Positions 3,377 to 35,229 of a stretch of 49,022 nucleotides of DNA are shown piece by piece. Under the pieces are notes generated by a model. The model was not told the DNA's origin, did no database searches, and was given only the letters and a program-made list of their open reading frames with translations. This DNA comes from a virus, in IMG/VR virus record IMGVR_UViG_3300037189_002960, positions 1 through 49,022 of that record. The stretch is one strand, 5' to 3'. The translations under genes were made by a program, and so were the position numbers. Every line of letters begins with the position of its first letter. Position 1 is the first letter of the stretch.

Positions 3377-3748
3377 TTAACCTCGATGTTTGTGCCCTGC
3401 GTCCCTATAGGTCTTCTTCCTGTGGCAGTTGGCGCAGCGGACGTCGCACTTTTCTATCTCCAGCTTGACGCGTTTGAGTGATATTCCCAAGCTAGTGGCC
3501 TCCCCGATGTTGAACTCTTTGTCCCGGAAATGATCGAACTCAAGGATTATGGGATCGGTTTCGCCGCAGTCTAGGCACGGGTGGTTGAGCAGGTAGGCAT
3601 ATATCCACCCTCTGATCCTATTTCGCACGTCACGGGTGTGGGCTTTGGCCTTGGCTTTGACGACGTCTTTATTAGCTTCGTAATAACGACGCTTGGCTTC
3701 CTTCTGTTTGATAGGATCGCGGCCTGCCATAAGCGGCGCATATAGCAC
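3377..3748 (-). CDS. HNH endonuclease with zinc-knuckle cysteines
   Basis: The protein has a basic N-terminus followed by CLDCGETDPIILEFDHF and CDVRCANCHRKKT. The two CxxC pairs should bind structural zinc. The DH and the later CHRKKT supply the His and Asn/His-like residues of a beta-beta-alpha metal nuclease. Start choice is uncertain: GTG at 3748 gives 123 residues, ATG at 3730 (MAGRDP) gives 117. Neither has a strong Shine-Dalgarno sequence. It is the first gene of the leftward block, just before the small terminase. Phage HNH genes beside terminases are known either as homing endonucleases or as packaging cofactors, and the sequence does not tell which. Confidence 0.85.
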   Translation of the reverse strand: MLYAPLMAGRDPIKQKEAKRRYYEANKDVVKAKAKAHTRDVRNRIRGWIYAYLLNHPCLDCGETDPIILEFDHFRDKEFNIGEATSLGISLKRVKLEIEKCDVRCANCHRKKTYRDAGHKHRG

Positions 3749-3990: not shown

Positions 3991-4044
3991 GGGGGGTAGG
4001 GGGCGGGTAGGGGTAACAATGGTTACTTTTCAATCCCCCGCCCC
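3991..4044. other. G-tract cluster with inverted repeat around a GTAAC dyad
   Basis: The plus strand at 3991-4013 has four G runs of 6, 5, 3 and 4 separated by one or two bases, a textbook G-quadruplex pattern. GGGGCGGG at 4000-4007 can instead pair with CCCGCCCC at 4037-4044. The loop then exposes GTAACAATGGTTAC (4013-4026), a member of the dyad family seen in the downstream control region. More G runs lie at 3852-3857 and 3904-3915. No gene is seen in 3903-4181. Confidence 0.5.
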
Positions 4045-4138
4045 TGTTTTGACGTTCCAATCCCCTTGAAACCCGCAGAAATCCGCCATTTTTAATAAAT
4101 GTCTTGCGTTAAATGACAGGCTTAGGGGATAAGGAAAA

Positions 4139-4156
4139 CGTGGCAAGGACGCCACG
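4139..4156 (+). promoter_or_regulatory. Small hairpin in the leader of the 4182 gene
   Basis: CGTGGC and GCCACG form a perfect 6-bp stem with loop AAGGAC, ending 25 bases before the ATG at 4182. The following bases are CTTTAATT, too weak a T-tract for a good terminator. It may influence transcript stability or translation. Confidence 0.3.
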
Positions 4157-4181
4157 CTTTAATTGGAAAGTTAAATAACTC

Positions 4182-4772
4182 ATGGTTACTGTTACCTCGG
4201 CGAAAGCCACCAAATCCGCCGCCTCTTCCAATGCCAAGAAGAAGGCCCCTACTAAAACCGAAACCATGCGGAAGATTGGCGAACGCATGGCCGCTAAGGC
4301 TAAGGCTTCACCCCTTGTGCTTGACCTAGACAAAGCTCGCGCCAATTGCGTTTCTAAGACGGGTGAAAGCACTAGTGCGGCACGGGTTTATGCCCATGCC
4401 TTAATCGCCAAGTTTGGGCCTGATTACTATACGTTCACTACGGCCAATTGTCGCACCGACAATGAGAAGGCTCATTTGGCTGGCATTGAAGAGGAACGGA
4501 AGCGTTGCCAAGCCGACTATGCCGCTAAGTATGGCGCGGAAGGTCAGAATATGCCTTGGAGCCGTGCTAAGGCAATAGCCAAGGGATTGCGTGAAGGCAA
4601 TGAGCCTAGGGCTGGCAAGCCCTTGGACGTTACGCAACGGACGGTTCTCACAAGCCTCTATAAGAAGGCAATGAAAGAGGAACGTCCTACGGAAACGGAA
4701 TTGGCAGTCAATGACGCAATCGGACGATTGCTAATCAGCGCCTTTAAGATTGACCTATCGACACTAGGCTAA
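4182..4772 (+). CDS. Lone gene for a basic protein of unknown function
   Basis: This 196-residue protein is not recognised. The first 42 residues are rich in Lys, Ala, Ser and Thr, like a flexible nucleic-acid-binding tail. The rest is mixed charged and probably helical, without membrane segments. It is its own transcription unit: about 280 non-coding bases lie upstream and a strong terminator follows the stop directly. It sits alone between the late terminase block and the repeat-rich control region. That placement fits an early regulator, a DNA-bending protein or a host-takeover protein, but this is inference from position only. The ribosome site (GGAAAG, 13 bases upstream) is weak. Confidence 0.75.
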   Translation: MVTVTSAKATKSAASSNAKKKAPTKTETMRKIGERMAAKAKASPLVLDLDKARANCVSKTGESTSAARVYAHALIAKFGPDYYTFTTANCRTDNEKAHLAGIEEERKRCQADYAAKYGAEGQNMPWSRAKAIAKGLREGNEPRAGKPLDVTQRTVLTSLYKKAMKEERPTETELAVNDAIGRLLISAFKIDLSTLG

Positions 4773-4779
4773 GCGACTA

Positions 4780-4809
4780 GGGGAGGCTTTCGGGCCTCCC
4801 CTTTTTTTT
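4780..4809 (+). terminator. Rho-independent terminator after the 4182 gene
   Basis: GGGGAGGC and GCCTCCCC pair perfectly (8 bp) around loop TTTCGG, followed by eight T (4802-4809). It begins eight bases after the stop codon. Confidence 0.93.
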
Positions 4810-4830
4810 GTCCGCCGTTCCCCATGCCCG

Positions 4831-4858
4831 CCCGCCATTCGGCGCGGCGGGTTTTTTT
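4831..4858 (+). terminator. Second tandem terminator
   Basis: CCCGCC and GGCGGG pair around a 9-base loop and are followed by seven T (4852-4858). It lies only 22 bases after the first terminator. Tandem terminators would insulate the control region from upstream transcription. A further small dyad, TGTGTC-CGC-GACACA, follows at 4858-4872. Confidence 0.75.
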
Positions 4859-4901
4859 GTGTCCGCGACACAGGCCCGACCACGTGCGGGCGGCGCGGCC
4901 C

Positions 4902-5115
4902 TCCCCCTATGACAGATGTGTGAAGGGCATAAATGGCGCGCATGGCTACGTGCTTAGGCAGCGCATGGGTCGCGCATCGTGGAGTAACCACGGTTACATT
5001 GTTAGCTAACATTATCAAAGTTAGGTGAGGGTCTCAGGCGTCCGAAGTAACCACGGTTACGTTGTTAGCGAAGCCTTCCCCCTATGACAGATGTGTGAAG
5101 TGCATAAGCGGCGCG
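4902..5115 (+). repeat. 39-bp direct repeat, two copies
   Basis: Copies at 4902-4940 and 5077-5115 match at 36 of 39 positions and share the core CCCCCTATGACAGATGTGTG. They are 175 bp apart in non-coding DNA. The GTAACC dyads lie between and just after them, so the repeated block seems to be a composite unit. Confidence 0.85.
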
Positions 5116-5153
5116 TGTAACGATGGTTAGCGAAGTTGGCCTACATTGTTATT

Positions 5154-5171
5154 AAAGTTAGAACTAACTTT
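5154..5171. repeat. Perfect palindrome AAAGTTAG-AA-CTAACTTT
   Basis: The two 8-base arms match exactly around AA. The half-site AAAGTTAG recurs through the control region and again inside the promoter-like motif at 22589, so it may be a protein-binding half-site. Confidence 0.6.
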
Positions 5172-5195
5172 CTTACAAAGCGCAGAAATCCTAGG

Positions 5196-5341
5196 TAGTT
5201 AGAAAGTTATAAAGTTAAGAGATAGCGAAGGCGGATTTTGAAACTGAACAGTGCAACGAGTCTCCTCGCAGATGCACGAACCGCACACTCCAAGGGGGAC
5301 GTATACCTTTTTTTCTCTCTATCTTTCTAACTTTCTAACTA
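5196..5341. repeat. Long imperfect AT-rich inverted repeat
   Basis: The arm starting TAGTTAGAAAGTTATAAAG (5196-5225) is closely matched by the reverse complement of 5319-5341, which begins CTATCTTTCTAACTTTC. The arms are about 93 bases apart and the right arm runs into ATATATATA. The structure could extrude as a cruciform, ease strand opening, or simply hold several copies of the TTAGAAAGTTA element in both orientations. Confidence 0.6.
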
Positions 5342-5454
5342 TATATATACCAACCCACGCATTTCTGCCATTTACCGCGTAACCGCAGTTACGTTTAGAA
5401 TGTTAGCGTTTCAAATCCTCCCGACCAACTTTGGCTCACTTTCCTAACAATGAC

Positions 5455-5477
5455 TTTCGGGATGCCCATCCCCGAAA
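5455..5477. promoter_or_regulatory. Hairpin just upstream of promoter P1
   Basis: TTTCGGG and CCCGAAA form a perfect 7-bp dyad around ATGCCCATC, ending 13 bases before the -35 box at 5491. It may be an operator for P1. Confidence 0.4.
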
Positions 5478-5490
5478 CCGCTAACTTTGA

Positions 5491-5519
5491 TTGACTAAGG
5501 AGTATTATTGTGCTACATT
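5491..5519 (+). promoter_or_regulatory. Promoter P1 (sigma70-type, extended -10)
   Basis: TTGACT (5491-5496), a 17-base spacer, then TACATT (5514-5519) preceded by TG one base upstream (TGCTACATT). The same arrangement with nearly the same flanks (TGTGCTACATTAT, then TGAACAAT) recurs at 8359, which strengthens both. It would drive the small early genes from 5549. Confidence 0.75.
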
Positions 5520-5548
5520 ATATGAACAATGAAGAAAGGAATTGATCG

Positions 5549-5779
5549 ATGCCCACCCCGCGCACAGTCGCAGTCGCCGCAGACAAACCAGAGCGTTTGG
5601 ATGTAACCATGGTTACGGCACGTAACGAGATCACCGCAGCGTTTGGAGAACGCGCTGCATGGCAAGCCACCATTAACCGCTTAATCAAGAAGGAGAGCCA
5701 AGAGACCAACCCGCAGCGCAAGCGCCATATGCGTCTGATGCTGCTCAATGCCCAAACCCAGCTTGCACTGCTGGCCTAA
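5549..5779 (+). CDS. Small hypothetical early protein
   Basis: This 76-residue protein is the first gene after P1, behind AAGAAAGGAA. It is basic and mostly helical, with a KK-RKRH patch in the second half. No family is recognised. The exact dyad GTAACCATGGTTAC lies inside its coding sequence (5603-5616), so a regulator of the control region could also bind here, just downstream of P1. First genes after an early phage promoter often act on the host, but nothing in this protein shows that. Confidence 0.7.
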   Translation: MPTPRTVAVAADKPERLDVTMVTARNEITAAFGERAAWQATINRLIKKESQETNPQRKRHMRLMLLNAQTQLALLA

Positions 5780-5811
5780 TCACATAACCATCGTTACAGA
5801 GGAGAAAGCAA

Positions 5812-6237
5812 ATGATGGAGTTCATTGCATACGATAACATTATCACCGTCGAGGAGGATGACCTTGACTGCCTATCAATCGAAGCCCTGTTCGCAGAGTT
5901 CCTTATCGAGGACGAGACGGGCATGGTGCCCATGTGGGATGAGGGGGAATCAGCAAGGAGAGTAACAATGTCACCGATTAAGAGACGCATTAAGTGCGTA
6001 GATGGCTTTAGCATGTCCGTTCAGGCTGGCGCGTATCACTATTGTTCGCCACGTGTGGACGACTTGGGCTTCTACAACGCATACGAGGTTGGCTATCCAT
6101 CCGAAGAGGAGTCGCTGCTTATGCCGTATGCAGAGGATGAGGAACGCGCAACCGAGACGGTATATGGCTACGTGCCTGTGCAAGTCATTGCGGAGGTCAT
6201 CGCCAAGCATGGCGGTGTAGTAGGGGAGGACAAGTAA
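5812..6237 (+). CDS. Conserved small phage protein with possible extra N-terminal part
   Basis: The 141-residue frame starts at ATGATG behind AGAGGAGAAAGCAA. Residues from about 53 on (MSPIKRRIKCVDGFSMSVQA, then YHYCSPR and a Pro-Ser-Glu-Glu stretch) look like a conserved, uncharacterised phage protein that usually begins near this Met. That internal ATG at 5968 has its own Shine-Dalgarno, AAGGAGAG. The acidic first 52 residues may therefore be a fused upstream gene that lost its stop, or the two starts may yield two proteins. Function is unknown. Confidence 0.75.
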   Translation: MMEFIAYDNIITVEEDDLDCLSIEALFAEFLIEDETGMVPMWDEGESARRVTMSPIKRRIKCVDGFSMSVQAGAYHYCSPRVDDLGFYNAYEVGYPSEEESLLMPYAEDEERATETVYGYVPVQVIAEVIAKHGGVVGEDK

Positions 6238-6238
6238 C

Positions 6239-6379
6239 ATGAACGAGGAAGAATTGCTGGCGAGCATAGCCGCCATGACCAACTACAAAGAGACACGTGA
6301 CCGACTGGAACAGGAGATGCGTGAGCAAATGCCTTGGCTGGCACAGAAGATACGGGACGATATGAAGGAGGACAAGTAA
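6239..6379 (+). CDS. 46-residue hypothetical protein
   Basis: The frame starts at ATG 6239 with GGGGAGGA upstream and ends in TAA at 6377-6379. The product is acidic, rich in Glu and Met, and likely one long helix or coiled coil. It sits one base after the preceding stop and one base before the next start, so it belongs to the same polycistronic message. No family is recognised. Confidence 0.65.
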   Translation: MNEEELLASIAAMTNYKETRDRLEQEMREQMPWLAQKIRDDMKEDK

Positions 6380-6380
6380 C

Positions 6381-6743
6381 ATGGGTTACCGCAGCGATGT
6401 GACTTACGTGTTCTACACGATGAAGCCTGATGTTGTTCCCTTCCCCGTGCTTAAACTGTGGTTTGATGAGAACTACCCCAAGCATGACTTCTGCACTGTT
6501 GTTACGGGCAACGACTATATCATGGTAAGCTATGACCATGTGAAATGGTATGCGGGCTACCCCGAAGTGGTAGAGGCGGAAGCTGCCGTAACTAAATTCA
6601 TGGAGACCTTTGACACCGACGATACAGAAAACGTAGCCTGTGAGATGGCGCTGGTGGGCGAGGAGCTTAACGACATAGTTTATGAGGCTTCGCCCCATGC
6701 CATATACCGGCTGGGTGTGAACCGTGACATATATTTTCACTAA
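6381..6743 (+). CDS. Conserved hypothetical phage protein (MGYRSDV start)
   Basis: This 120-residue acidic soluble protein opens with MGYRSDVTYVFY. The MGYRSDV opening is seen in many uncharacterised phage and plasmid proteins. The middle holds several aromatic residues (YDHVKWYAGYPEVVEAE). No catalytic motif is evident. The ribosome site is AAGGAGGACAAG directly before the ATG. It is packed tightly between small genes of the P1 unit. Confidence 0.75.
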   Translation: MGYRSDVTYVFYTMKPDVVPFPVLKLWFDENYPKHDFCTVVTGNDYIMVSYDHVKWYAGYPEVVEAEAAVTKFMETFDTDDTENVACEMALVGEELNDIVYEASPHAIYRLGVNRDIYFH

Positions 6744-7369: not shown

Positions 7370-8362
7370 ATGGCAATGGCATATAATACGCTGAGCGCGA
7401 TACCTCGTTTACTGTCATACGAGCAAGCCTCACGCTGGGAGCGAGACACCAAGCCGATACGTGGAGACGCGAACGGCACAAAGCCGCTGGGCAGGCGCAC
7501 ACAGAAATACATCCAGATCAAGCGTGAGGAGGACGACAACATTGCGCTCATCTACGGCAACCACGTGTTCGCACGTTACGAGCCTAGTGGGAATGTGATG
7601 CTGTATGACCAAGGTTACTCCGTCAAAGCAGCGGTCAACGAGTTGCTGGAGCGCGTGACTGGGCTACGCACGTGGACGGACAAGAACAAGTGCTGGGTGC
7701 GTGTCGATGGTAAGTCGTCATACCTGCGGTCCAATCCACGAGCGCGCTGGGTGTATGAGCAGAACGCACAAGGTGAGATGCGGCATCGTCGCATTGAGGA
7801 TAGCAATCCGTTACCTCGCAACATCTTCCGGCGCACGAAGGATGCGCGTGGCATGGAGCAGTGGACATACATCAACCCGCCAACTTTGGTTAAGCACGTA
7901 ATCAATCGTGCTGGTAAGAAGCGTGTGATGGAGACCTACGCGCCGTTCATGCGGTATCTGGATGCTATGACCAAGGTTATGGGGGACTCGCCTGCCCCTG
8001 AGCTTGACGAGTATGTGCGCGTGTTCGACGTCAACGTAGCGGAGGGAGATACGCAGTGGGCGGTGCGTAACAAGCTACCGCCATCCCCGTATAATCGCTG
8101 GTTCAACCACGAGCAGGCGGACAAGTTGGCTACGCTCATGGGATCGGACGACATCGCTCATCACTACAAAGCCATGCTGTGGCTGTGGGTGGGCATTGAG
8201 CGTCACCACAACGACCATCGCAAGAAAGTAATCAGCCACGCACATAAGGCTATAATGATGACGCACCACAACGAGGTGCTGACCAAGGTGGAGATCGAAA
8301 CCGAATCATCGACGGGTGACGCATATCTGTGGGCCATCCCCGTTTCCGTCGAGAACGCTTGA
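7370..8362 (+). CDS. Large hypothetical protein upstream of the MoxR cassette
   Basis: This 330-residue soluble, slightly basic protein has the standard AAGGAGCAAACAC ribosome site. Visible blocks are GRRTQKYIQIKREED (42-56), an aromatic beta-rich stretch (LIYGNHVFARYEPSGNVMLY) and a His-rich C-terminal part (ERHHNDHRKK). No known catalytic motif is recognised. Its stop lies within the -35 box of promoter P2, so it closes the P1 unit or reads through into the next. Similar proteins may occur in environmental phages, but no function is known to me. Confidence 0.75.
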   Translation: MAMAYNTLSAIPRLLSYEQASRWERDTKPIRGDANGTKPLGRRTQKYIQIKREEDDNIALIYGNHVFARYEPSGNVMLYDQGYSVKAAVNELLERVTGLRTWTDKNKCWVRVDGKSSYLRSNPRARWVYEQNAQGEMRHRRIEDSNPLPRNIFRRTKDARGMEQWTYINPPTLVKHVINRAGKKRVMETYAPFMRYLDAMTKVMGDSPAPELDEYVRVFDVNVAEGDTQWAVRNKLPPSPYNRWFNHEQADKLATLMGSDDIAHHYKAMLWLWVGIERHHNDHRKKVISHAHKAIMMTHHNEVLTKVEIETESSTGDAYLWAIPVSVENA

Positions 8363-8387
8363 CTAACTTAATATACTGTGCTACATT
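8359..8387 (+). promoter_or_regulatory. Promoter P2, near copy of P1
   Basis: TTGACT (8359-8364), 17 bases, TACATT (8382-8387) with the extended TGC in front. Flanks match P1: TGTGCTACATTAT(A/G)TGAACAAT(G/A)AAGAA. The 5' leader also has a small dyad GACCC/GGGTC around 8418-8437. It would give the MoxR/VWA cassette its own start signal. Confidence 0.75.
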
Positions 8388-8457: not shown

Positions 8458-9528
8458 ATGGCTACAATCTCTTTCGGCACGACTGTTTCGCTTACCGAAG
8501 CGGCTACTCTTATCCGCACCTGCCGCACCAACCGCTTCTTCCTGCGCGGTGAGCCGGGCATCGGCAAGTCATCCATCATGGACTCGTTCGAGCAGTTCTT
8601 CGGTGACGCCTACGCCTACGCTTACTTTGACTGTGCGCAGAAGGACCTCGGTGACATCGCCATGCCAACCGTCAATCGTGAGCTGCGCGTAACCGAATAC
8701 TTCCCTAACGCAGTATTGCAGTTGCAGACGGGCAAGCCGGTCGTCATCATGCTTGACGAGTTTACCAAGGCTCCGCAGCCTGTGCAGAATATGCTGCATC
8801 CGTTGCTCGAAGCGCGCAACCCGCGCCTCGGTGACATCCCACTGCCTGAGGGTAGCATCGTGTTCCTGACTGGCAACATGGCTAGCGATGGCGTTGGCGA
8901 TAACATCAAGGCGCACACGCTCAATCGCGTAACCACTGTTACGGTGCGCAAGCCTACCGCAGAGGAGTGGCTGGCATGGGCAGTCAACCATGACGTTGAC
9001 CCTGTTATCATGGCGTGGGTCAATCAGTTCCCACACGCTATGTCATCCTATCTGGAGGGTGAGCAGGACAGCAACCCGTATATCTTCAACCCCAAGAAGA
9101 TGCAGGGATCATTCGTGTCGCCTCGCTCACTCAAGCTGGTTAGTGACGTAGTCAAGGAGCGTGAGCATCTTACCGCCAACGCAGCGCTGGCTGCTATGAT
9201 CGGCACCATCGGTGAGGCTGGCGCACGGGATATGCACGCTTACGTGGACTACCAAGATCAGTTGCCCACGTGGGACGAGATCACCAAGGACCCCAAGAAA
9301 GCCAAGCTTGCTGACTCCGCTGGTGCGTGTGCGGTTATGGTCTTCGGTGCTATCGCTAAGGTTGACCGCGCAACCATCACGCCGTTCATGGAGTATGTGG
9401 AGCGCATGGAGCCAGAGTGGCAGGCTGTGTTCGCCATCAACATCGTCAAGAATCCTGCCAAGGCGCAGATCGCCTTCACGTCCACCAAGTTCCGCGACTG
9501 GGCGCTCAAGAACGAGGACATCCTGTAA
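8458..9528 (+). CDS. MoxR-like AAA+ ATPase
   Basis: This 356-residue AAA+ protein has Walker A GEPGIGKSS (31-39), Walker B VVIMLDEF (95-102), and a sensor 1 Asn in VFLTGNMAS (135-143). The short N-terminus and the 'NMLHPLLEARNPRLGDI' segment after Walker B resemble MoxR/RavA-type ATPases, which remodel or activate partner proteins and usually pair with a VWA-domain protein. Such a partner is encoded two genes downstream. Comparable ATPase/VWA pairs are known in N4-like and other phages, with no settled role. The start is ATG after AAGGAGCATAACA, behind promoter P2. The stop overlaps the next ATG as TAATG. Confidence 0.88.
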   Translation: MATISFGTTVSLTEAATLIRTCRTNRFFLRGEPGIGKSSIMDSFEQFFGDAYAYAYFDCAQKDLGDIAMPTVNRELRVTEYFPNAVLQLQTGKPVVIMLDEFTKAPQPVQNMLHPLLEARNPRLGDIPLPEGSIVFLTGNMASDGVGDNIKAHTLNRVTTVTVRKPTAEEWLAWAVNHDVDPVIMAWVNQFPHAMSSYLEGEQDSNPYIFNPKKMQGSFVSPRSLKLVSDVVKEREHLTANAALAAMIGTIGEAGARDMHAYVDYQDQLPTWDEITKDPKKAKLADSAGACAVMVFGAIAKVDRATITPFMEYVERMEPEWQAVFAINIVKNPAKAQIAFTSTKFRDWALKNEDIL

Positions 9529-12852: not shown

Positions 12853-13032
12853 ATGGCACGAGGTCGTCCGTTCCTGCCAGAAGGAACACAGATGGTTAGC
12901 ATCAGCATCCGCATCCCTGCGGAGATGCGAGACTTTTATAAATCTAAGGGGGATATGTCCTACCGGATGCGCATTGCGCTGGAGGAATATCAGAAAAAAG
13001 ATATGTCTACGGTTGACACTGTTAAAGGTTAG
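12853..13032 (+). CDS. Small probable ribbon-helix-helix DNA-binding protein
   Basis: ATG 12853 follows TTAAAGGAGACGCATAAC. The 59-residue product has a beta-strand-like MVSISIRIPAEM followed by two predicted helices (RDFYKSKG, SYRMRIALEEYQK), the layout of Arc/CopG-type dimeric repressors. It could be an autoregulator or bind the dyads of the control region, but that pairing is a guess. Its 3' end overlaps the promoter-like motif P3. Confidence 0.5.
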   Translation: MARGRPFLPEGTQMVSISIRIPAEMRDFYKSKGDMSYRMRIALEEYQKKDMSTVDTVKG

Positions 13033-23059: not shown

Positions 23060-24016
23060 ATGAGCAACCTTACTATTTTCAAGAATCCCAACGCAGTCGC
23101 ATCCGCTGCACTACCTGCTTCGGCTCTCGGCCAGCAGATCGCTGCTACAATGGGCGGCTTCAACCGCATCCAGACCAACACCAACGGCACCTTCAAGCGC
23201 ATCGTTAACGGTGAGCAGGTCGGCAAAGCCATCCGTGGCGAGTTCAACGCTATTATCGTAGCCATGTTGGCTAAGCCCGGTCGTGAGTTTTACGGCTCGG
23301 ACTATGATCCCGATGCTAAGGCAACGCTGCCTGACTGCTACTCTAACCTTGGTGACAAGCCAGAAGCTTCGTCTAAGAACCGCCAAGCGGCTAACTGCAC
23401 AACCTGCTCCAACAACATCGACGGTTCGGGCAAGAACGGTAAGGGTAAAGCCTGCCGCTTCAAGCGTAAGATCGCAATCCTCCTTGAGGGTGACGAGTCC
23501 GGTGAAGTCTACCAGTTCAACGTGCCTGCCAAGTCGCTCTTCGGTAAGGGCAGCGGTAACACTCACCCATACGAAGCTTACTGCCGTTTCCTCGCCGCCA
23601 ACGGCACGGGGCCAGACCGCGTAGTCACTACAATTGCCTATAACCTTGATGCAGAGACGATGGAGATTAACTTCACCGCTGACCGCTTCATTACCCCAGA
23701 GGAACTTGAGATCGTTCAGTCGGCTCAGGATAACCCTGCTACGCAGCGTCTCATTCAGATCACTGCTGGTGAAGCTGATGGTGCCAAGCCTGCTGTTAAG
23801 GCAGAGGAAGAAGCTCCGAAGTCCGCAATCAAGCCAGCCTCCAAAGTGAAGGTTAAGAAGTTGTCATTTTTGGACGACGATGAAGACGAGGAAGAGGCCG
23901 AAGTCGAAGCCCCCAAGGCCAAGCGCACTGCCAAGAAGGAAGAGCCTGTGAAGGCATCCGGTGATTTGGCTTCCATTGTTGACGCATGGGCTGACGACGA
24001 GGACGAGGAAGACTAA
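23060..24016 (+). CDS. Probable single-stranded DNA-binding protein
   Basis: I use ATG 23060; a GTG at 23048 would add four residues. The 318-residue protein has a soluble N-terminal domain, Cys residues (CTTCSNNIDG and ACRFKR) that may bind zinc, and a long low-complexity Lys/Glu region ending in a strongly acidic tail (WADDEDEED). An acidic C-terminal tail that recruits partners is the hallmark of phage and bacterial ssDNA-binding proteins. Neighbours (helicase upstream, primase downstream) agree. The core fold is not a clear OB match by eye, so the call is moderate. Confidence 0.6.
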   Translation: MSNLTIFKNPNAVASAALPASALGQQIAATMGGFNRIQTNTNGTFKRIVNGEQVGKAIRGEFNAIIVAMLAKPGREFYGSDYDPDAKATLPDCYSNLGDKPEASSKNRQAANCTTCSNNIDGSGKNGKGKACRFKRKIAILLEGDESGEVYQFNVPAKSLFGKGSGNTHPYEAYCRFLAANGTGPDRVVTTIAYNLDAETMEINFTADRFITPEELEIVQSAQDNPATQRLIQITAGEADGAKPAVKAEEEAPKSAIKPASKVKVKKLSFLDDDEDEEEAEVEAPKAKRTAKKEEPVKASGDLASIVDAWADDEDEED

Positions 24017-24258
24017 TGAGCAACGGCTATAGCCTCCGACTCCGCGACTTGAACAAGAAAGCAGATAAGCGCAAGCTAGGGGTTCGCCTCGGTAAGCTGT
24101 GCATCAAGCATGACGTCCCCGTTGCGGTAGTTGCGAAGCGTTTAGGCGTGTCACGTACGACGGTATACAACTGGTTCTGCGGGGTTTCGGCCCCGCAGAG
24201 TTCAGCCGCCGGATTGCTTGAGTCCTACATCGCTAGTTTGGAGGGTGCCACTGCTTAA
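24016..24258 (+). CDS. Small Cro/Xre-like helix-turn-helix protein
   Basis: ATG 24016 overlaps the preceding stop (TAATG). The 80-residue protein has VPVAVVAKRLGVSRTTVYNW, a clear helix-turn-helix, with a basic first half. It is likely to be a DNA-binding regulator and a candidate to bind the dyads of the control region or P3/P4, although no sequence evidence ties it to either. The 3' end of the gene forms part of a hairpin. Confidence 0.7.
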   Translation: MSNGYSLRLRDLNKKADKRKLGVRLGKLCIKHDVPVAVVAKRLGVSRTTVYNWFCGVSAPQSSAAGLLESYIASLEGATA

Positions 24259-27366: not shown

Positions 27367-27398
27367 CCCCCGCTAGTTAATTCTGGCGGGGGTTTTTT
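27367..27398 (+). terminator. Terminator of the rightward module
   Basis: CCCCCGC (27367-27373) and GCGGGGG (27386-27392) pair perfectly, followed by six T (27393-27398). It lies between the convergent primase and polyvalent units. The complement has no T-run, so it stops only the plus-strand transcript. It overlaps the stop codon of the leftward gene. Confidence 0.9.
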
Positions 27399-30300
27399 AC
27401 TGCTTAAGGTCCTTCTCCACCGTGTTATAGCTACGGTTGAACTCCTTATAGACCGTGTTCTGCTTCTTGCGGTAGAAATCCACAATCATCTGGCGCTGCT
27501 TGGCATCTTTCAGACCCAGTAGTTCCTCGCGGCGGTCACGACCGATATCGTCCAGTTCCTTCTTAGCATCCTTGTATGCGGCCATGATGCGCCAGTCGGT
27601 CTCTACAGGGAACTTTTCTCGGCTCTTTCGGAAGTCCTCCGGCTCATATTCTTCCTGACGGACCAATGCACCCATGCCCGGATGGCCGTAGAACGGAGCG
27701 CTTTCAGTCCGCATAAAGTACTTGTTCATCGGGATGTATTCGCCACCCTTGCCGACATAGGCACGGACGATTGGTAGGCGCTGTGCAAGGGTCTTATCAC
27801 CCTTGTTATCCCCAGCGATGAACTTGTAGGTATCCTCAGCAGTGCGGTAGCCGCCGCCCAGATACGACTCGAAGATGTGCCGGTACCATTCGGGCTGGCG
27901 GTCAAAGCCGCCACTGACAGACTCAGAGCCACCCGTCATGTTGTTCATGCTGCGGGCAATCCACTTCCACACCCGCTCGGTATCTTCACGGCCCAGCGAG
28001 GAAGCAGCGCGGTCGGCATCAAACTTCTTAGTGTAGATGGGTGAGCCGAAGCTATTGAGGTTGGACTCCGCCTCAACAACGGGCTTAGTCAGGCTCGGTG
28101 CTACAGATGCGATAAGCCCAGAAACTTCTGCGCCACGAGGCTTAACTGGAGACAGCGTGTTTACCGCTGCCGCACCAATTGACTTCGCTGCATCCATGAT
28201 GCTGACTGTTCCAGCGCCGGGGGAAATAGCACCCATCGCTACTTCGCCAAGTTTCTGACCTACGTAAGTTGGGAACCCGAGCATAAAGCCAAGCGGAATA
28301 GCGACGTAGTCATCAACCTTTGGCCCGGTCATGAGAACCAAGCTACCCTGTTGCACAGCATCAGGCAGGTCCAAGTAGTTAGGGACTTTGTCACGGTCAT
28401 CATCACCGCCACCCTTGTAAGCATTCCACGCTAGGGAAAGCACGCCGATAGCCATTTGGGCGAGGATAATCTTGCGGCCATTGCTGCTGTTAAACGCCAA
28501 GCGCTTAAGACGACGCGCCGACTCCGCCGAAGGACTCCAGAAGAAGAACAGGCTGTCCAGCACCTGTGCCCACTCGCCGCGACGGGTAAGGTTAAGGGAC
28601 GAGTTAAGTGCCAGACGCGCCGCACCTTCGCGGTCGATGCCTTCTTCCAACGCAGCTATGTACGTAGCGAAGCGCGCTTTATAGTCGATCATCTGTGATG
28701 TAGCGTCAAGGAATTTAGGCACCGCAAGCGCTGCTTCCTTAGCAAACGCAGTTGGGTTCTTATCCTTAAGCGCCTTAAGACGCTTGAGAGACTTCGAAGC
28801 ATCGGCAGTGAGAAGTTCGATGTCATGGATAACAGCGTGACCCGGAGAACCCCCGTCCTCAATAAACTGGTCGAACAGGAGAAGCATCTCAGCCTGCTCC
28901 GCTGTTTTCGGCTCCAGCCCATTGATGTAGCGGAACATCGTGCCGTTTATCGCCCGGCCCGTGGGAGTAAGCGCAGAACAGTACGCAGCTACCTTAGCGC
29001 CAAGCTTCTTACCAAAAGCAGGGCTATATTTTTCAGTCTGCGCAGCAACTGCGTTAACCACAGCATCCATCGGATCGCGGATAAATGCGCGGGGGAGATA
29101 CGGAGGGCTGAACCGCGTCAACTGCGACTTCATGAAGTTGGCGCTCTTTATCCACGCCTTCATAAACCCGTTAAGCTGCTTAGGCGTCATGTTATCGAAG
29201 GCGCGCTTCATCGCCTGCCCAGCAGGGGTGTTCGTAAACTCGACATAGTACGGCACGCCATCCTTCTTGACGACGAGGTACTTCTTAGCTTCTGCCTTCA
29301 TGTTAACGTTTACGGGCGTACCATCAGGGTACTCAACATTTTCACTGGGCTTTACACGAACTTTGGGGTCCGAGTCTGTGTAGTACGTAGCTACATCAGC
29401 GTTCGCTTCCGGATCATTAATCAGGTTCTCAAGGAACTGCTGCCCCACACGGTTAACCGAGGCGCGCTGGATCAGATGCTTAGCGTCAGCGAAGAGCATA
29501 TAGAGCGGATTAAACGGCATGGACTTGCGCCCTTCCGACTTCATATACTCTGAGCGACGGATACCAAGACGCTTCTGGTATTCTGTATCGTTATGGGCTT
29601 CTTCATCACCCAGCGTCTGCATATCGCCCGCAGCCGCAAAGCCCTTTAGCGGCGTATAGAAAGGCTGCATCTTGCGCGCCATGTCCGCTTGCTGGCGAGT
29701 GAGAAGCCCTTCCTTAACCCGCGTGTTGAGCATGAAGTCCACGAGGCGGTCGTGCATCTTGGCGATTTCTTTGAGCTTCGGCTCCAGCCCGCGCAGTGCA
29801 AACTCCTTAAGGATCGCCTCTGCTTCGGCATCGGTCATACCCGAGCCACCCTCAGGGTAAGCCTTGTTACGCTCACGCACCAGTGCGTTACGATCCTTGG
29901 CACCGCGTGCCCACAGGTACATGCCGATATCCTGCTCTTCGACGCCAAGCTCGACCATTTTGCGGAGGATCGGCTGGATGAAGTTACGCTCAAGCGATAT
30001 TTGGCGACCGCTGCGCGAAGCATTAAGAAGCTCAGTTTTGTGCGAGACAGCCATGTTATCAGGCAGTTGCTCAATGCCGTACATAGCCGCAAGCTGCTTG
30101 TCATAATCAACGATGTCTTGGTAGCTGTAGTTCAACTTACGGATGATGGCAGACTGTGCCTTGGAGAACTGCTTAAGCAGACCCTGTAGCCGGGCCATGA
30201 TACCCGCACGATCTTCGCGGGACACGTTAGGGTTAGGCTCCAAGCCCAAGTCCGTTGGGTCCAGCATCTCGTCAGGGTACATGGCGTTACGCCCACCAAG

Positions 30301-33300
30301 CGACATCGAAGCACCGCCCGGGAGTTTACGTGTGACGATATAGTCATCGGGCGCGATAGCTTGCTCTTCATACGGGGTAAGGTCAGAGCGTTCCGCAGCG
30401 CTAAGGGTACGCCGGTCAGCAGATGAACGTGCTTCCACCTCACCAAACAACGCTAGATACGCTTCACGCGCTGCGCGGGTCTCCTTCAGGATAGCGATGA
30501 TATCGTCACGGGATTGAACCGTTTCCAATGCCGTTACCGTGTAGGTATCTTTCTCGATGGCATCTTCGAACTTCTTGTACCGCTCGTTGATCCTGTCGGG
30601 GTTTGCATCGGCTACAGAAAGCAAATCAGTGATCGCAACGCGCTGCTCAGGTGACAACTCGCTGTATTTGGTTACGCCGAAAACCGCTTCGTATATTTTC
30701 TTTTGGGCGTCGTCTTTTGCTTTGACGGCAGCAGTGCGTTCGGGCGTGCCAACTTCAAACTTGTCCCGCGCTTCCTTAAGCGCACGCGATGCCTGCATAT
30801 ATTTTTCGAACAGGCCGGGGCCTGCGTTCATAGCAGAGTCCCATATCGCTAGGGTAGCTGCATTACGCTCAATCTTTGCGGTCAGGCGCGATACCTCATT
30901 GCGCACATAGCGCGCTAGCTGCTCATCAGAAGCCTTAGAGAGCGCGGTCTGTGTGTTACCCCCACGAGCAAAATCTTCCTGCCCCTGAATCCAGTGCTGG
31001 ATTTCATGCACAATCGTGCCGATAGGGTCCTTCGCATAGGGCGTTATAACAAGCTCGTTCTTTTGCTCGTTATACCAGCCCTGAGTAGACCCCGAAAAAT
31101 CCAAGATGTCGTTCTGGCGCTTGATCTTGATGTTCTTGGCAGCGGGGTAGTACTTATACAGCAGGGGGTGATCCAGAACCTCCCCGAGCGTGGTTACGTG
31201 CTGTTCCTTGAGCAGTTTGGACTGCGGCAGGTTAGCCCAGTTATCCGTAAAGCTTGCACCTTCATCGGAGAACTCAAAGCGCCAGTCACCATCCGGTGCC
31301 TTGAACCAACCCGTCTGCTTGTGCACGTCGCTATTGGGGCCGGATGGATTGCCCATGCCGTCAAGCATACGAGCAGTGTCGTATTGGGTTACCTCGTTGA
31401 ACCGCAACTTAGCGTTGTCACGGCCACCATACATGAAGGCAGGGCCTTCGTTACCCACAATGATGCGTTCGCTCTTTGAATGGCCCGTAGTATTGGCAAG
31501 CTGATTTAGCTGACGGATAACTGGTGAGCGTGTAGGCAGGCCGACAAACGAGCCGAGATGCGATGCAAACTCTTTCAGCCACTGCTTGATGCGCGCAATT
31601 ACGCTGTCTTTAACGTCGTAGCGCTGGCGCAGGATATCGGTAGCATTCTCAGCCCAGAACTCGGAAGGGGAAAAGTACTGGTAAAACCCCTGCTTTGATA
31701 CGTCGCTATCAGGGTCAGAAAGCAGCATCCGTGCAAATTGCAGGTTACGGACGTCTCCGCTTCCAAAATAGTAATCATGGATAAGGTTGAGATACCGCTT
31801 TGCGTCACCGTCAACTAGGCGGCGTTTGATATTTAACCGCGTCTCCCACAGGTCATATATAGCGTCCTGTGCGCTTTCGGGCATCAAACGCTCTGCATGG
31901 TGCAGTACTTCATGGACGGTAGTGGCACTGGGTGCACCAGCGACAATTTCAATCAGACGCTCAAGGGGAGTGTACTGACCAGCGTAACCTTGTCCGTTAT
32001 AGTTGCTAACAAATAGGCTAACATAACGCGTGAGGTTCGGATTGTTCTCCAATACCCACGTAGCGAAGTCCGCATGGTCCTGCGTCATCTTGCCATCAGC
32101 AACAGCCTGCTGAAGAGCAGCGAGGATTTGTTCGGTACCTTCTGCAACATTAACCGCTTCAGTCAGGTCCAAAGTACCTATATCAGCCTGCGGATTAGTA
32201 AGCAGTTCCGAAGCGGCATCCTCCCGCATACTAAGCACGGTACCCATAGCAGGCTGCACACGCAGCGCACGGAGAGCCGTGTCGCGGTCAGCTTTGCTGA
32301 TCTGCTTGGTCTTGTACGCTTCTTCAATAAGGCGGATGTCAGCCTGACGCTTGGTTACCCGTGCCATAGCCTCACGGCCTGCGGCATTAGCAATACCACC
32401 GCGCATCTCATCAAGCTGCTCGTTCAGGACCTTAAGAGCGGCCTTGATCTTTGCTTTCTGCTTGGGGTTAGGTGTGTTGTTCAGTTCTTCTGAGCGCTGG
32501 TTAATCAGAAGCTGCTGGTTGATAGCTGCTTCCCAACGCTTCCGCTGCGACTCAGGCAGTGCATCAAAGTCAGCCTTGGTGGTCGGCACGCGCATCATGC
32601 GCAGAACATCGCCAACGTCCTTGTCAGAAAGACGGTTGTTATTGCGAAGCACAGCCAAGCGCTCGGTAAGAAGCTGCTCATTCTGCATACCCGGAGTAAG
32701 TTCAGCAGCGCCTTCAACAGGGCGACCCTGCTGGGTGCCCATCATACCACGACGGGTTTCCTTAAGTCCTCCCGCATCGCCCGGAGCAACCTTGGTTACC
32801 GGAACACCTTTAAGGTTGTCAGGGATCAGGTCCTCAGGGACTACTTCTGGTTCCCCTTGTGTACCTGCTTCGTACTCGTTTTCAGCCTGCATGAACGCAG
32901 CAAGCTCTTCATCCGAGGGTTCCCCCTCTGTGGTACGTTCGTATTCACCGCCCGGCCCAAATACATCCGCAGCGCGAACACGGCGCTGGATGCGTGCAAC
33001 CTCATCCTCAGTCAGCGGTTCCTGACGAGCCTGAAGCAGGTCAGCGTTGATCTTACTGATCTTCTGCTCGGCATCATAATTACGACGGCCAACCGTATCC
33101 TCAACGATACCTGCACGCTCTACCTGCTGGGTCTTGAGGCTCTGCGTTTCGCTTTCGCCAGCAGCAGTCTCGAACGCGGACTCCATCCGCATAATGTCAA
33201 GCAGCGTAGCGTGTTCGCTATCTGTAGACCCATCAAGCCCATGACCGGCGAGTGCTTCATCAAATGCGGCGTGCTTGTCTACGATATTAGGGTCCATGGC

Positions 33301-35229
33301 GACCTGCGTGAGCAGTTCGTAACGCATCGGTCCTTCCTGCTGCCGCAACCGTTCATTAGCCACCAACATGTCAGTAAGGGACACAGGTGGCGTAGGAGTG
33401 CCAGCGACTGCACCGGGCTGCGCCTGAGCTTTGCCGTACTCAACACGGTAGTCATTGAGGATTGACTTAGCTTCGTACAGTACGCGTAGCGTGGGGTCCG
33501 TAATAGCCGACGTGCCTTGAGTAGCTGCTTCCTGATTAGCCTGCGCACGGCGCGCACGTGAGAAACGCCCTTCAAGCGAAGAGATGTAATCAGCCGCAGC
33601 TTGCGGACGGTTCAGTGCAAGATCGTTGGAGAGTTTAAGGTTGAGTGAGTTAACAAAAGACGTGACCTGCCCGTTGGGCTTTTCACCCGCAGCATTAGCC
33701 AAGCGTCCGCTAATCATTTCCTTAGTAAAGATACCTGCTGGCACGCCTTCTTCGGTCGGTGCACGCATCGACTCCAGCGTATCCATGCTCATGCGGACAA
33801 GCCGCCCATCAGCGTGACGGACAACTACGTTACCGTCAGCATCAGGTGCACTAAGGATATCCAGCTTTTGGCGTGTAATGATGTTGGGGTCTTTGGGGTC
33901 AGGAATAGCAGCGTCGATGGACTCCAACGCCTTCTGCTTGCGCAGCGCTTCACGTGCAGCATTATAATCTTCCTTGCCGCCCGGAAATAGCTTCTGGACT
34001 GCATCAGACCCTGCGCGGACGCCACCACCCACAATGAAGCCCGCTGCGGCATTAGCAGCTACATCTTCGCTAAGCTGCTTGTCTTTGTTATAAGCCAACC
34101 GTTCTTGTGCGTTCTGAGCAAATTGCGATAGCGCTTCCTGACCTGCCTCTTCAAAGCCGCGCATAGCAATGCGGCCCGCAGCCATAGACTCGATTTCATG
34201 GATCGTGGCTTTAATCGCAGCCTTAGCTTCAGCAGGTACAATCACACCCATACCTGCCTTGGAAGCAATGTTCATCAGCTTGGCAGTAGCAGTTGTCCGC
34301 AGGTTCTGCGGCAGGCGTGCAATAAGACCCTCGGTAACACCCAACTCAGATAGGCCAATAGCAGAACCACCTAGAGTGACGAGTTGCCGCGTTATTGGGC
34401 CTACTTTTTCACCGGTCTTCTTTTCGTAAGCGTCCATCTGCTCACGAGCCTGAGTAGCACCTTGGCCTGAAGCCACTGCACCGAGGAAGAGATTAGACGC
34501 ACCGCGTACTGCTTTAGGTATAAAGCCTACGCCCTTAGCTGTGGCTTTAGCTGCACCGCCAACCAGATATGGCGCAATGCTACCAGCACCTCCGCTGAGA
34601 AACTCAACGTTCTGCATCGTGGGATCAAACTGAAGAGCTTCGGTTACTTCAGCAGGCTGGGCAAGACCAATGTTAGCAGCAAGATTTTTAGCCCCACTTT
34701 GGATGCTGCGACCGATGTTTTCGCCCGTCTGCCCAAAGATACCCAGCGCACCGCCAAGCTCCCCAGTAGACTCAACAGCGGTGCGGGCCGCAGTGCGGAA
34801 AGGATCAACGATCTTCTCGCCAAGGGTCAATTCGTGCGGTGCACGGCCCTTCTCAGCAATGAACTGTTCCTTACCTCCAAGCGCCTTAAGCTCTGCCTGA
34901 AGCTTACGCTCACGTATCTCATACTGGTTCAGCCACGAGCGATACTGAGAGTCGTTGCTCTTGTTACGCGCACCCAGCCGCTGCTCCAATTGGGCAGTGG
35001 CGGTAGCTTTCTTAGCGGCGTTTTCCTGTAACTGCTTAGTGTAATCAGCGCGCTGCTTAGCAATATCCGTAATGGCTTGCTGTGCATCAGGAGTAGGCGC
35101 TGCTTTAGGGGCAGCGGGAGCAGGAGCTTTAGGCTTCAGATTGTCCGGGATCATATCCATCGGAACAACGTTACTCTGGCGGGGCTTAAGGTTGTCCGGG
35201 ATCAGATTAAGCGGAACAGGGGTAGCCAT
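27397..35229 (-). CDS. Giant polyvalent internal virion protein
   Basis: At 2610 residues this is the largest gene. It fits the phage polyvalent proteins that travel in the capsid and enter the cell with the DNA. IPDNLK occurs at 10-15, 27-32 and 802-807. Residues about 1100-1115 carry VHEVLHHAERL (HExxH at 1106-1110). Residues about 1340-1430 resemble the LPD23 domain and end in IVHEIQHWIQG (HExxH at 1408-1412). The C-terminal third has LFFFWSPSAESARRL and an LPD38-like tail. Two zinc-peptidase signatures suggest cleavage of host or virion proteins after injection. The gene ends the leftward late operon and follows the transglycosylase, as T7 gp16 follows gp15. Start ATG after AAGGAAGTAAAGC. 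Confidence 0.82.
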   Translation of the reverse strand: MATPVPLNLIPDNLKPRQSNVVPMDMIPDNLKPKAPAPAAPKAAPTPDAQQAITDIAKQRADYTKQLQENAAKKATATAQLEQRLGARNKSNDSQYRSWLNQYEIRERKLQAELKALGGKEQFIAEKGRAPHELTLGEKIVDPFRTAARTAVESTGELGGALGIFGQTGENIGRSIQSGAKNLAANIGLAQPAEVTEALQFDPTMQNVEFLSGGAGSIAPYLVGGAAKATAKGVGFIPKAVRGASNLFLGAVASGQGATQAREQMDAYEKKTGEKVGPITRQLVTLGGSAIGLSELGVTEGLIARLPQNLRTTATAKLMNIASKAGMGVIVPAEAKAAIKATIHEIESMAAGRIAMRGFEEAGQEALSQFAQNAQERLAYNKDKQLSEDVAANAAAGFIVGGGVRAGSDAVQKLFPGGKEDYNAAREALRKQKALESIDAAIPDPKDPNIITRQKLDILSAPDADGNVVVRHADGRLVRMSMDTLESMRAPTEEGVPAGIFTKEMISGRLANAAGEKPNGQVTSFVNSLNLKLSNDLALNRPQAAADYISSLEGRFSRARRAQANQEAATQGTSAITDPTLRVLYEAKSILNDYRVEYGKAQAQPGAVAGTPTPPVSLTDMLVANERLRQQEGPMRYELLTQVAMDPNIVDKHAAFDEALAGHGLDGSTDSEHATLLDIMRMESAFETAAGESETQSLKTQQVERAGIVEDTVGRRNYDAEQKISKINADLLQARQEPLTEDEVARIQRRVRAADVFGPGGEYERTTEGEPSDEELAAFMQAENEYEAGTQGEPEVVPEDLIPDNLKGVPVTKVAPGDAGGLKETRRGMMGTQQGRPVEGAAELTPGMQNEQLLTERLAVLRNNNRLSDKDVGDVLRMMRVPTTKADFDALPESQRKRWEAAINQQLLINQRSEELNNTPNPKQKAKIKAALKVLNEQLDEMRGGIANAAGREAMARVTKRQADIRLIEEAYKTKQISKADRDTALRALRVQPAMGTVLSMREDAASELLTNPQADIGTLDLTEAVNVAEGTEQILAALQQAVADGKMTQDHADFATWVLENNPNLTRYVSLFVSNYNGQGYAGQYTPLERLIEIVAGAPSATTVHEVLHHAERLMPESAQDAIYDLWETRLNIKRRLVDGDAKRYLNLIHDYYFGSGDVRNLQFARMLLSDPDSDVSKQGFYQYFSPSEFWAENATDILRQRYDVKDSVIARIKQWLKEFASHLGSFVGLPTRSPVIRQLNQLANTTGHSKSERIIVGNEGPAFMYGGRDNAKLRFNEVTQYDTARMLDGMGNPSGPNSDVHKQTGWFKAPDGDWRFEFSDEGASFTDNWANLPQSKLLKEQHVTTLGEVLDHPLLYKYYPAAKNIKIKRQNDILDFSGSTQGWYNEQKNELVITPYAKDPIGTIVHEIQHWIQGQEDFARGGNTQTALSKASDEQLARYVRNEVSRLTAKIERNAATLAIWDSAMNAGPGLFEKYMQASRALKEARDKFEVGTPERTAAVKAKDDAQKKIYEAVFGVTKYSELSPEQRVAITDLLSVADANPDRINERYKKFEDAIEKDTYTVTALETVQSRDDIIAILKETRAAREAYLALFGEVEARSSADRRTLSAAERSDLTPYEEQAIAPDDYIVTRKLPGGASMSLGGRNAMYPDEMLDPTDLGLEPNPNVSREDRAGIMARLQGLLKQFSKAQSAIIRKLNYSYQDIVDYDKQLAAMYGIEQLPDNMAVSHKTELLNASRSGRQISLERNFIQPILRKMVELGVEEQDIGMYLWARGAKDRNALVRERNKAYPEGGSGMTDAEAEAILKEFALRGLEPKLKEIAKMHDRLVDFMLNTRVKEGLLTRQQADMARKMQPFYTPLKGFAAAGDMQTLGDEEAHNDTEYQKRLGIRRSEYMKSEGRKSMPFNPLYMLFADAKHLIQRASVNRVGQQFLENLINDPEANADVATYYTDSDPKVRVKPSENVEYPDGTPVNVNMKAEAKKYLVVKKDGVPYYVEFTNTPAGQAMKRAFDNMTPKQLNGFMKAWIKSANFMKSQLTRFSPPYLPRAFIRDPMDAVVNAVAAQTEKYSPAFGKKLGAKVAAYCSALTPTGRAINGTMFRYINGLEPKTAEQAEMLLLFDQFIEDGGSPGHAVIHDIELLTADASKSLKRLKALKDKNPTAFAKEAALAVPKFLDATSQMIDYKARFATYIAALEEGIDREGAARLALNSSLNLTRRGEWAQVLDSLFFFWSPSAESARRLKRLAFNSSNGRKIILAQMAIGVLSLAWNAYKGGGDDDRDKVPNYLDLPDAVQQGSLVLMTGPKVDDYVAIPLGFMLGFPTYVGQKLGEVAMGAISPGAGTVSIMDAAKSIGAAAVNTLSPVKPRGAEVSGLIASVAPSLTKPVVEAESNLNSFGSPIYTKKFDADRAASSLGREDTERVWKWIARSMNNMTGGSESVSGGFDRQPEWYRHIFESYLGGGYRTAEDTYKFIAGDNKGDKTLAQRLPIVRAYVGKGGEYIPMNKYFMRTESAPFYGHPGMGALVRQEEYEPEDFRKSREKFPVETDWRIMAAYKDAKKELDDIGRDRREELLGLKDAKQRQMIVDFYRKKQNTVYKEFNRSYNTVEKDLKQ

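Follow-up and report, generated by a model that had tools for sequence, protein, structure and literature searches.

Cluster O mycobacteriophages (Corndog) carry a 17-bp dyad, TGTTCGG-N3-CCGAACA, in more than 30 copies genome-wide (34 reported), the function of which is unknown and most sites of which, according to the Corndog authors, do not lie near promoters (PMC4351075). The stoperators of the temperate cluster A phages (L5) are asymmetric 13-bp sites that are oriented with transcription, bound by the repressor, and variable between genomes (PMC6550527). Start-associated sequences of cluster K phages (TM4) are also asymmetric and lie 3 to 7 bp from the start (PMC3203893). Dispersed symmetric phage repeats have been known since 2015, from cluster O, without a function; here, we describe them in dozens of related genomes. 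The DNA analyzed (the window) is a 49,022-base IMG/VR virus contig whose first 25 kb have no near DNA match among INPHARED phages. A gene-free stretch of this window joins a probable replication start with the head of a set of scattered palindromic sites that probably switch early genes. A control center with two functions, dyad regulation and origin, is the best explanation of the region, with a probability of roughly 60%.

Gene order and limits of the gene-free region

The genes for the terminase large subunit (terL) and for a protein that weakly matches SU10-type portals are read leftward, and those for an AAA ATPase, a VWA/metallopeptidase-like protein, DNA polymerase A, an SNF2 helicase, and a DUF927 protein are read rightward. 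The interval 4859-5548 is gene-free, as stated in a preliminary description of this DNA, and is flanked by ORF 4182-4772 and ORF 5549-5779. It had also been placed at the hinge between packaging and replication genes, but ORF 4182-4772 separates the packaging genes from the interval and, because it runs rightward, sets the switch of transcription at about 3.75 to 4.18 kb, to the left of the interval. An HNH endonuclease gene (3377-3748, minus strand) lies between the terminase genes and the gene-free region and is present in some relatives only, where it is 47 to 90% identical. Elsewhere in the window, 27397-35229 (minus strand) encodes a protein of 2610 aa that has LPD38 and LPD23 domains and whose N-terminal part weakly matches the virion RNA polymerase family phrog_2206.

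Features at the left side of the interval are as follows:

4182..4772, plus strand, ORF for a 196-aa all-helical protein that evolves fast and has no assigned family; candidate for the cognate dyad regulator
4779..4808, plus strand, rightward intrinsic terminator, from a terminator scan
4831..4858, plus strand, second terminator-like hairpin, CCCGCC...GGCGGG and then seven T, from reading of the sequence
4893..4940, plus strand, copy 1 of a 48-bp repeat, core TATGACAG...GTGTGAAG
5000..5011, unstranded, perfect 12-bp palindrome TGTTAGCTAACA
5068..5115, plus strand, copy 2 of the 48-bp repeat

The tandem terminators reported for one side of the interval were recovered at 4779-4808 by the scan and at about 4831-4858 by eye, the 9-nt loop of the latter being beyond the limits of the scan. 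An Rfam search returned only a subthreshold match, over the terminator. The two-copy repeat, described as 39 bp long, is real and measures 48 bp, with 88% identity and an identical 21-bp core. The exact core had no match in IMG/VR. Related ATGAYAGT...GTGTG repeats (core TATGAYAGT...GTGTG) occur two or three times at the same place in four relatives (L240, L247, L026, and L202). A perfect 18-bp palindrome is absent; the longest perfect palindrome in the interval is the 12-bp TGTTAGCTAACA, which is probably what had been called the 18-bp one. Likewise, the claim that no other stretch of the window is so dense in symmetry holds for short dyads, which peak here (21 in the 700-bp segment at 4951, against a mean of 5.9 and a standard deviation of 3.3), but not for direct repeats, which are denser at 45.5 to 46.5 kb. 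The densest direct repeats of the window (45551-46600) lie in a late leftward gene region. As a whole, the earlier observation was partly confirmed and its interpretation partly supported: the repeats are real and conserved but are split among at least two overlapping systems.

Dispersed dyads in the window and its relatives

The cluster of 14-bp dyads noted in the interval consists of GTAAC-N4-GTTAC at 4984, 5047, and 5379 and of a copy with one mismatch at 5117. These dyads are members of a wider set that extends over the early genes and is tied to early promoters and gene starts; they are not parts of an origin. The whole window contains 19 sites with at most one mismatch (1.15 expected; no more than 4 in 100 shuffles), and six of the nine exact copies fall within 4013-6389. 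The promoter P1 described for the interval was confirmed at 5491-5519. Dyads and promoters are located as follows:

4013..4026, unstranded, dyad GTAACAATGGTTAC, 155 bp upstream of ORF 4182
4984..4997, unstranded, dyad GTAACCACGGTTAC
5047..5060, unstranded, dyad GTAACCACGGTTAC
5117..5130, unstranded, dyad GTAACGATGGTTAG, one mismatch
5379..5392, unstranded, dyad GTAACCGCAGTTAC, upstream of P1
5491..5519, plus strand, sigma70-like promoter P1, TTGACT-17-TACATT with a TGTG extended -10
5603..5616, unstranded, dyad GTAACCATGGTTAC, 84 bp downstream of the P1 -10
5784..5797, unstranded, dyad ATAACCATCGTTAC, one mismatch, directly before the ribosome-binding site of ORF 5812
6376..6389, unstranded, dyad GTAACATGGGTTAC, overlapping the start codon of ORF 6381
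8359..8387, plus strand, promoter P2, a near copy of P1, preceding the AAA ATPase gene
8929..8942, unstranded, dyad GTAACCACTGTTAC, within the ATPase gene; distance downstream of P2, 542 bp (543 bp in L247)

The P1 element is present in 59 loci, and its general form, TTGA-N13..15-TGTGnTAY, was counted 95 times on the forward strand and twice on the reverse strand, with 9 occurrences in reversed sequence. At 71 of 82 promoters, the dyad that follows starts 30 to 85 bp past the -10. Not every promoter has a nearby dyad, since the nearest one downstream of P2 in the window is 542 bp off. Self-comparison of the window aligned P1 and P2 (5491-5536 and 8359-8404) over about 30 bp in common, including the transcribed start TGTGCTACATTATnTGAACAAT.

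Relatives were collected as 80 loci via the terminase and 80 via the VWA protein, and repeated palindromes were tallied in them without presetting any sequence. Many relatives have a palindrome of their own in many copies, whereas shuffles gave at most two; such a palindrome reached at least four copies in 81 of 165 fragments, a count that, like the others drawn from these IMG/VR fragments, includes close relatives and overstates their independence. At least 15 palindrome sequences occur at equivalent places across the relatives, among them GTAACC, CTAACA (with even and odd spacing), CTTAACT, CTCAC, CTTAC, CTGACAA, GTACGGC, AACCTACA, and TCCTAG; for instance, the dyad of L059 is CCTAACAATGTTAGG, compared with GTAACCACGGTTAC in the window. 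When relatives were compared, as the preliminary description had suggested, the layout proved to be conserved in L240, L247, L026, L202, and L203. As far as the contigs reach, the order in the first four, which are the nearest relatives, is a dyad, the ORF 4182 homolog, a terminator, ATGAYAGT repeats with dyads, AT-rich repeats, the core, the promoter, and the first early gene, and this general order is kept with different palindromes in L203, L039, and L006. In complete relatives with dyads, these are spread over the gene-free region and roughly the first 9 kb of early genes, and in G018, G005, and G019 they are limited to one block of about 9 to 10 kb. The complete relative G006 (including L021) has the AT-rich region but no dyads, ORF 4182 family gene, or detected ATPase match.

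The dyads occupy preferred positions. They were found at the starts of the ATPase (56/62), VWA (39/67), and o10958 (32/56) genes; for the ORF 4182 family gene, 31 of 33 loci had an adjacent dyad (12.1 expected). Dyads were rare or absent at the starts of terL (0/36), portal (0/17), TerS (3/38), and polymerase (5/40) genes. Together with the two conserved promoters and one variable gene, these positions yield a concrete hypothesis for function and binder. It is quite likely that the dyads are protein-binding operators for early transcription.

A cultured distant relative, Planktothrix phage Pag-Yong1 (L222, OL906435.1; TerL at about 50%, with VWA and ATPase genes), carries 19 copies of its own dyad, GGTTCAGnCTGAACC, mostly 10 to 38 nt before start codons; it differs from the window in having dyads also in late genes and a tighter linkage to start codons. 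Since this phage is in culture, the dyad question can be tested in the laboratory. The papers searched contain no description of its dyad. One Pag-Yong1 gene is annotated as the anti-CRISPR AcrVA2. In the cultured relatives HTVC023P, HTVC027P, 023Pt_psg01, and DSL-LC04, the regions examined were free of such dyads. A paired-dyad scan of IMG/VR returned mostly unrelated codon repeats and other phages. Another phage group (L084, L088, L091, and other isolate-derived loci) has a fixed trio of GTAAC-N4-GTTAC sites, GTAACAAGAGTTAC, GTAACCAATGTTAC, and GTAACTATTGTTAC, at constant spacing.

Placement before genes could alternatively mean that the dyads act in RNA: placed like start-associated sequences, they would form small hairpins ahead of ribosome-binding sites and regulate translation or mRNA cleavage. 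Indeed, 29% of the dyads end 10 to 40 nt before a start with a ribosome-binding site, compared with 10% of random positions, and the Pag-Yong1 sites mostly precede annotated starts. Many sites, however, are intragenic or precede P1 in the gene-free region, and some palindromes have one spacer base or none (CCTAACATGTTAGG in L044) and would therefore form weak hairpins, which leaves a role in RNA unlikely.

The AT-rich segment as a candidate replication origin

Between the dyads and P1, the interval contains an AT-rich segment with its own repeats:

5151..5350, unstranded, 200-bp segment with the lowest GC in the window (38%), a candidate for the unwinding region
5154..5217, plus strand, left array of iteron-like AAAGTTA(G) units, at 5154, 5203, and 5211, with an extra copy at 5017
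5234..5280, plus strand, core, flanked by the two arrays, ATTTTGA...CAGTGC...TCTCCTCGCAGATGCACG; diverged versions recur in relatives
5320..5341, minus strand, right array, made of inverted AAAGTTAG/AGTTAGAA units and forming the other arm of the long inverted repeat
5340..5349, unstranded, TATATATATA run

Both the AT-rich long inverted repeat of the preliminary description (5196-5217/5320-5341, 22 nt, 91% complementary) and its run (TATATATATA at 5340-5349) are present. The AAAGTTA(G) units occur seven times in 4772-5515 and four times in the rest of the window. The short repeats vary by lineage (AAAGTTAG, AATGTTAT, TGTAAGAA, TAACAATA, and others), cluster in the AT-rich region, and are rare elsewhere in most genomes; 8-mer arrays exceeded shuffles in 16 of 25 loci. 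A single strand switch around the core accommodates 91 of 99 copies (80 expected; 0 of 2,000 permutations), and the core, with TTTTGA and CTCnGCAnnTGCA, recurs among relatives. A conserved RNA structure in the core was ruled out, as the folds differ between genomes.

The equivalent region, between the dyads and P1, is the lowest-GC segment in six of six complete relatives. Consistently with the predicted skew change, the cumulative GC skew has a minimum at or near the AT-rich region in the window, G005, G006, G018, G019, and G026 (in some only a local one), although it is unclear in G008 and is confounded throughout by the gene-strand switch. The lowest GC in the six relatives and the skew minimum in most of them make an origin plausible at about 5017-5349, and on balance the AT-rich element is probably one, judged from its base composition and repeat architecture. 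This part of the original origin proposal is supported, whereas the 14-bp dyads that it included belong to the wider set instead. We found no studied member of this phage group, for which the conserved element makes a good candidate origin.

Could the whole region nevertheless be one single origin, with dyads, short repeats, and the AT-rich run all serving as initiator-binding or unwinding sites? The AT-rich minimum, the strand-switching short repeats, and the skew minimum would fit, as would the dyads adjoining the short repeats. Yet the dyads reach about 9 kb into the early genes, following promoters and gene starts, and dyad and short repeat differ in sequence in several genomes; a single origin is accordingly improbable.

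Candidate binder, proposed mechanism, and known systems

The preliminary description had singled out three helix-turn-helix (HTH) proteins as possible binders. Those at 12853 and 17712 were found in 0 and 1 of six complete relatives, respectively, and the recognition helix of the third is nearly constant across genomes with differing dyads, which rules it out as the dyad reader:

24016..24258, plus strand, HTH protein, beside the DUF927 gene; conserved in six of six complete relatives

As a speculation, HTH 24016 might bind the origin rather than the dyads. The ORF 4182 protein had no significant match in Pfam, PHROG, PDB, or BFVD, and a single-sequence search of bacterial genomes, with a reach of close relatives only, returned no relative. 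AlphaFold2 models of the family are all or mostly helical (pLDDT of 82.5 for the window protein and 77.8), and structure searches matched no solved or virus-predicted fold and no known DNA-binding fold. The family is far more variable than the terminase, and it occurs together with dyads in the window and five complete relatives, with both absent in the sixth (G006). Identity in ORF 4182 predicted the dyad class with an AUC of about 0.87 to 0.91, compared with 0.61 for terL. Similar predictive values were obtained for the ATPase (0.95) and VWA protein (0.86), so that the dyad is associated with the entire early block rather than with ORF 4182 only. The ORF 4182 product is the best candidate for the binder, but a tentative one, to which we give somewhat less than even odds.

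With the binder at candidate level, and with P1 and P2 resembling host sigma70 promoters, the dyads might instead be sites of a host regulator, their lineage differences mirroring different hosts. That 31 of 33 loci have sites next to one particular phage gene, and that this gene and the dyads are both absent from G006, favors a phage factor, and we rate a host regulator about as improbable as a single origin. An attachment site (opposed short-repeat arms around a core, as in attP) or partition centromere (dispersed palindromes, as in parS) is dismissed as very improbable, because no tyrosine integrase (PF00589), ParA-type ATPase (PF13614), or serine resolvase (PF00239) domain was found in 13 to 17 contigs, some of them incomplete, in searches whose controls gave matches.

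Under the two-function reading, a phage-encoded dimeric DNA-binding protein, most likely the ORF 4182-4772 product, would bind the 14-bp dyads in its own promoter region, in the gene-free region, downstream of the host-type P1, and within the next early genes or at their starts. Occupancy of sites in transcribed stretches would block or stall RNA polymerase, and the early block, regulator included, would be turned down once enough protein had been made. Control of early transcription by a dimeric phage regulator is likely; we infer repression rather than activation. The AT-rich stretch 5017-5349, with strand-switching short repeats around its core and the ATATATATA run, would be the site of DNA unwinding for replication, an initiator binding its short repeats. 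More tentatively still, the palindromes, at least 15 in number, at equivalent positions in this large, apparently virulent, uncultured phage group may be read by the undescribed all-helical ORF 4182 family. The lineage palindromes would then offer a natural series of changed specificities, with a protein and all its sites changing together.

The closest precedents are the dyads of cluster O and the stoperators of cluster A. Cluster O dyads share with those described here a perfect dyad with a short spacer, many copies, mostly intergenic with some intragenic sites, arms that are constant within a genome, and a genome without integrase or parAB. Here, however, the sequence is another one, with nine exact copies concentrated in the early block, and relatives carry at least 15 palindromes at equivalent places, confined to that block and tied to promoters. 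Cluster A stoperators are similar in being dispersed, in having a site upstream of the regulator's own gene (here a candidate), and in a motif that differs between genomes; they differ in that our sites are symmetric palindromes instead of asymmetric, oriented 13-bp ones, and in that no lysogeny gene was found here (PF00589, PF13614, and PF00239 in the 13 to 17 contigs). Like the start-associated sequences of cluster K, the dyads are limited to nonstructural genes and some lie just before start codons, but they are symmetric, 10 to 40 nt from the start, and only a fraction is start linked. The AT-rich element, in turn, resembles iteron-type origins (e.g., the lambdoid ori) in its clustered short repeats, adjacent AT-rich segment, and control region near early genes, and it differs in having 7- to 9-bp repeats in two opposite-strand arrays whose sequence drifts between relatives. 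Collectively, the dyad system resembles cluster O dyads, cluster A stoperators, and cluster K start-associated sequences and, by the features tested, is a member of none; if the ORF 4182 family does read the lineage palindromes, it would represent a stoperator-like specificity system outside temperate phages.
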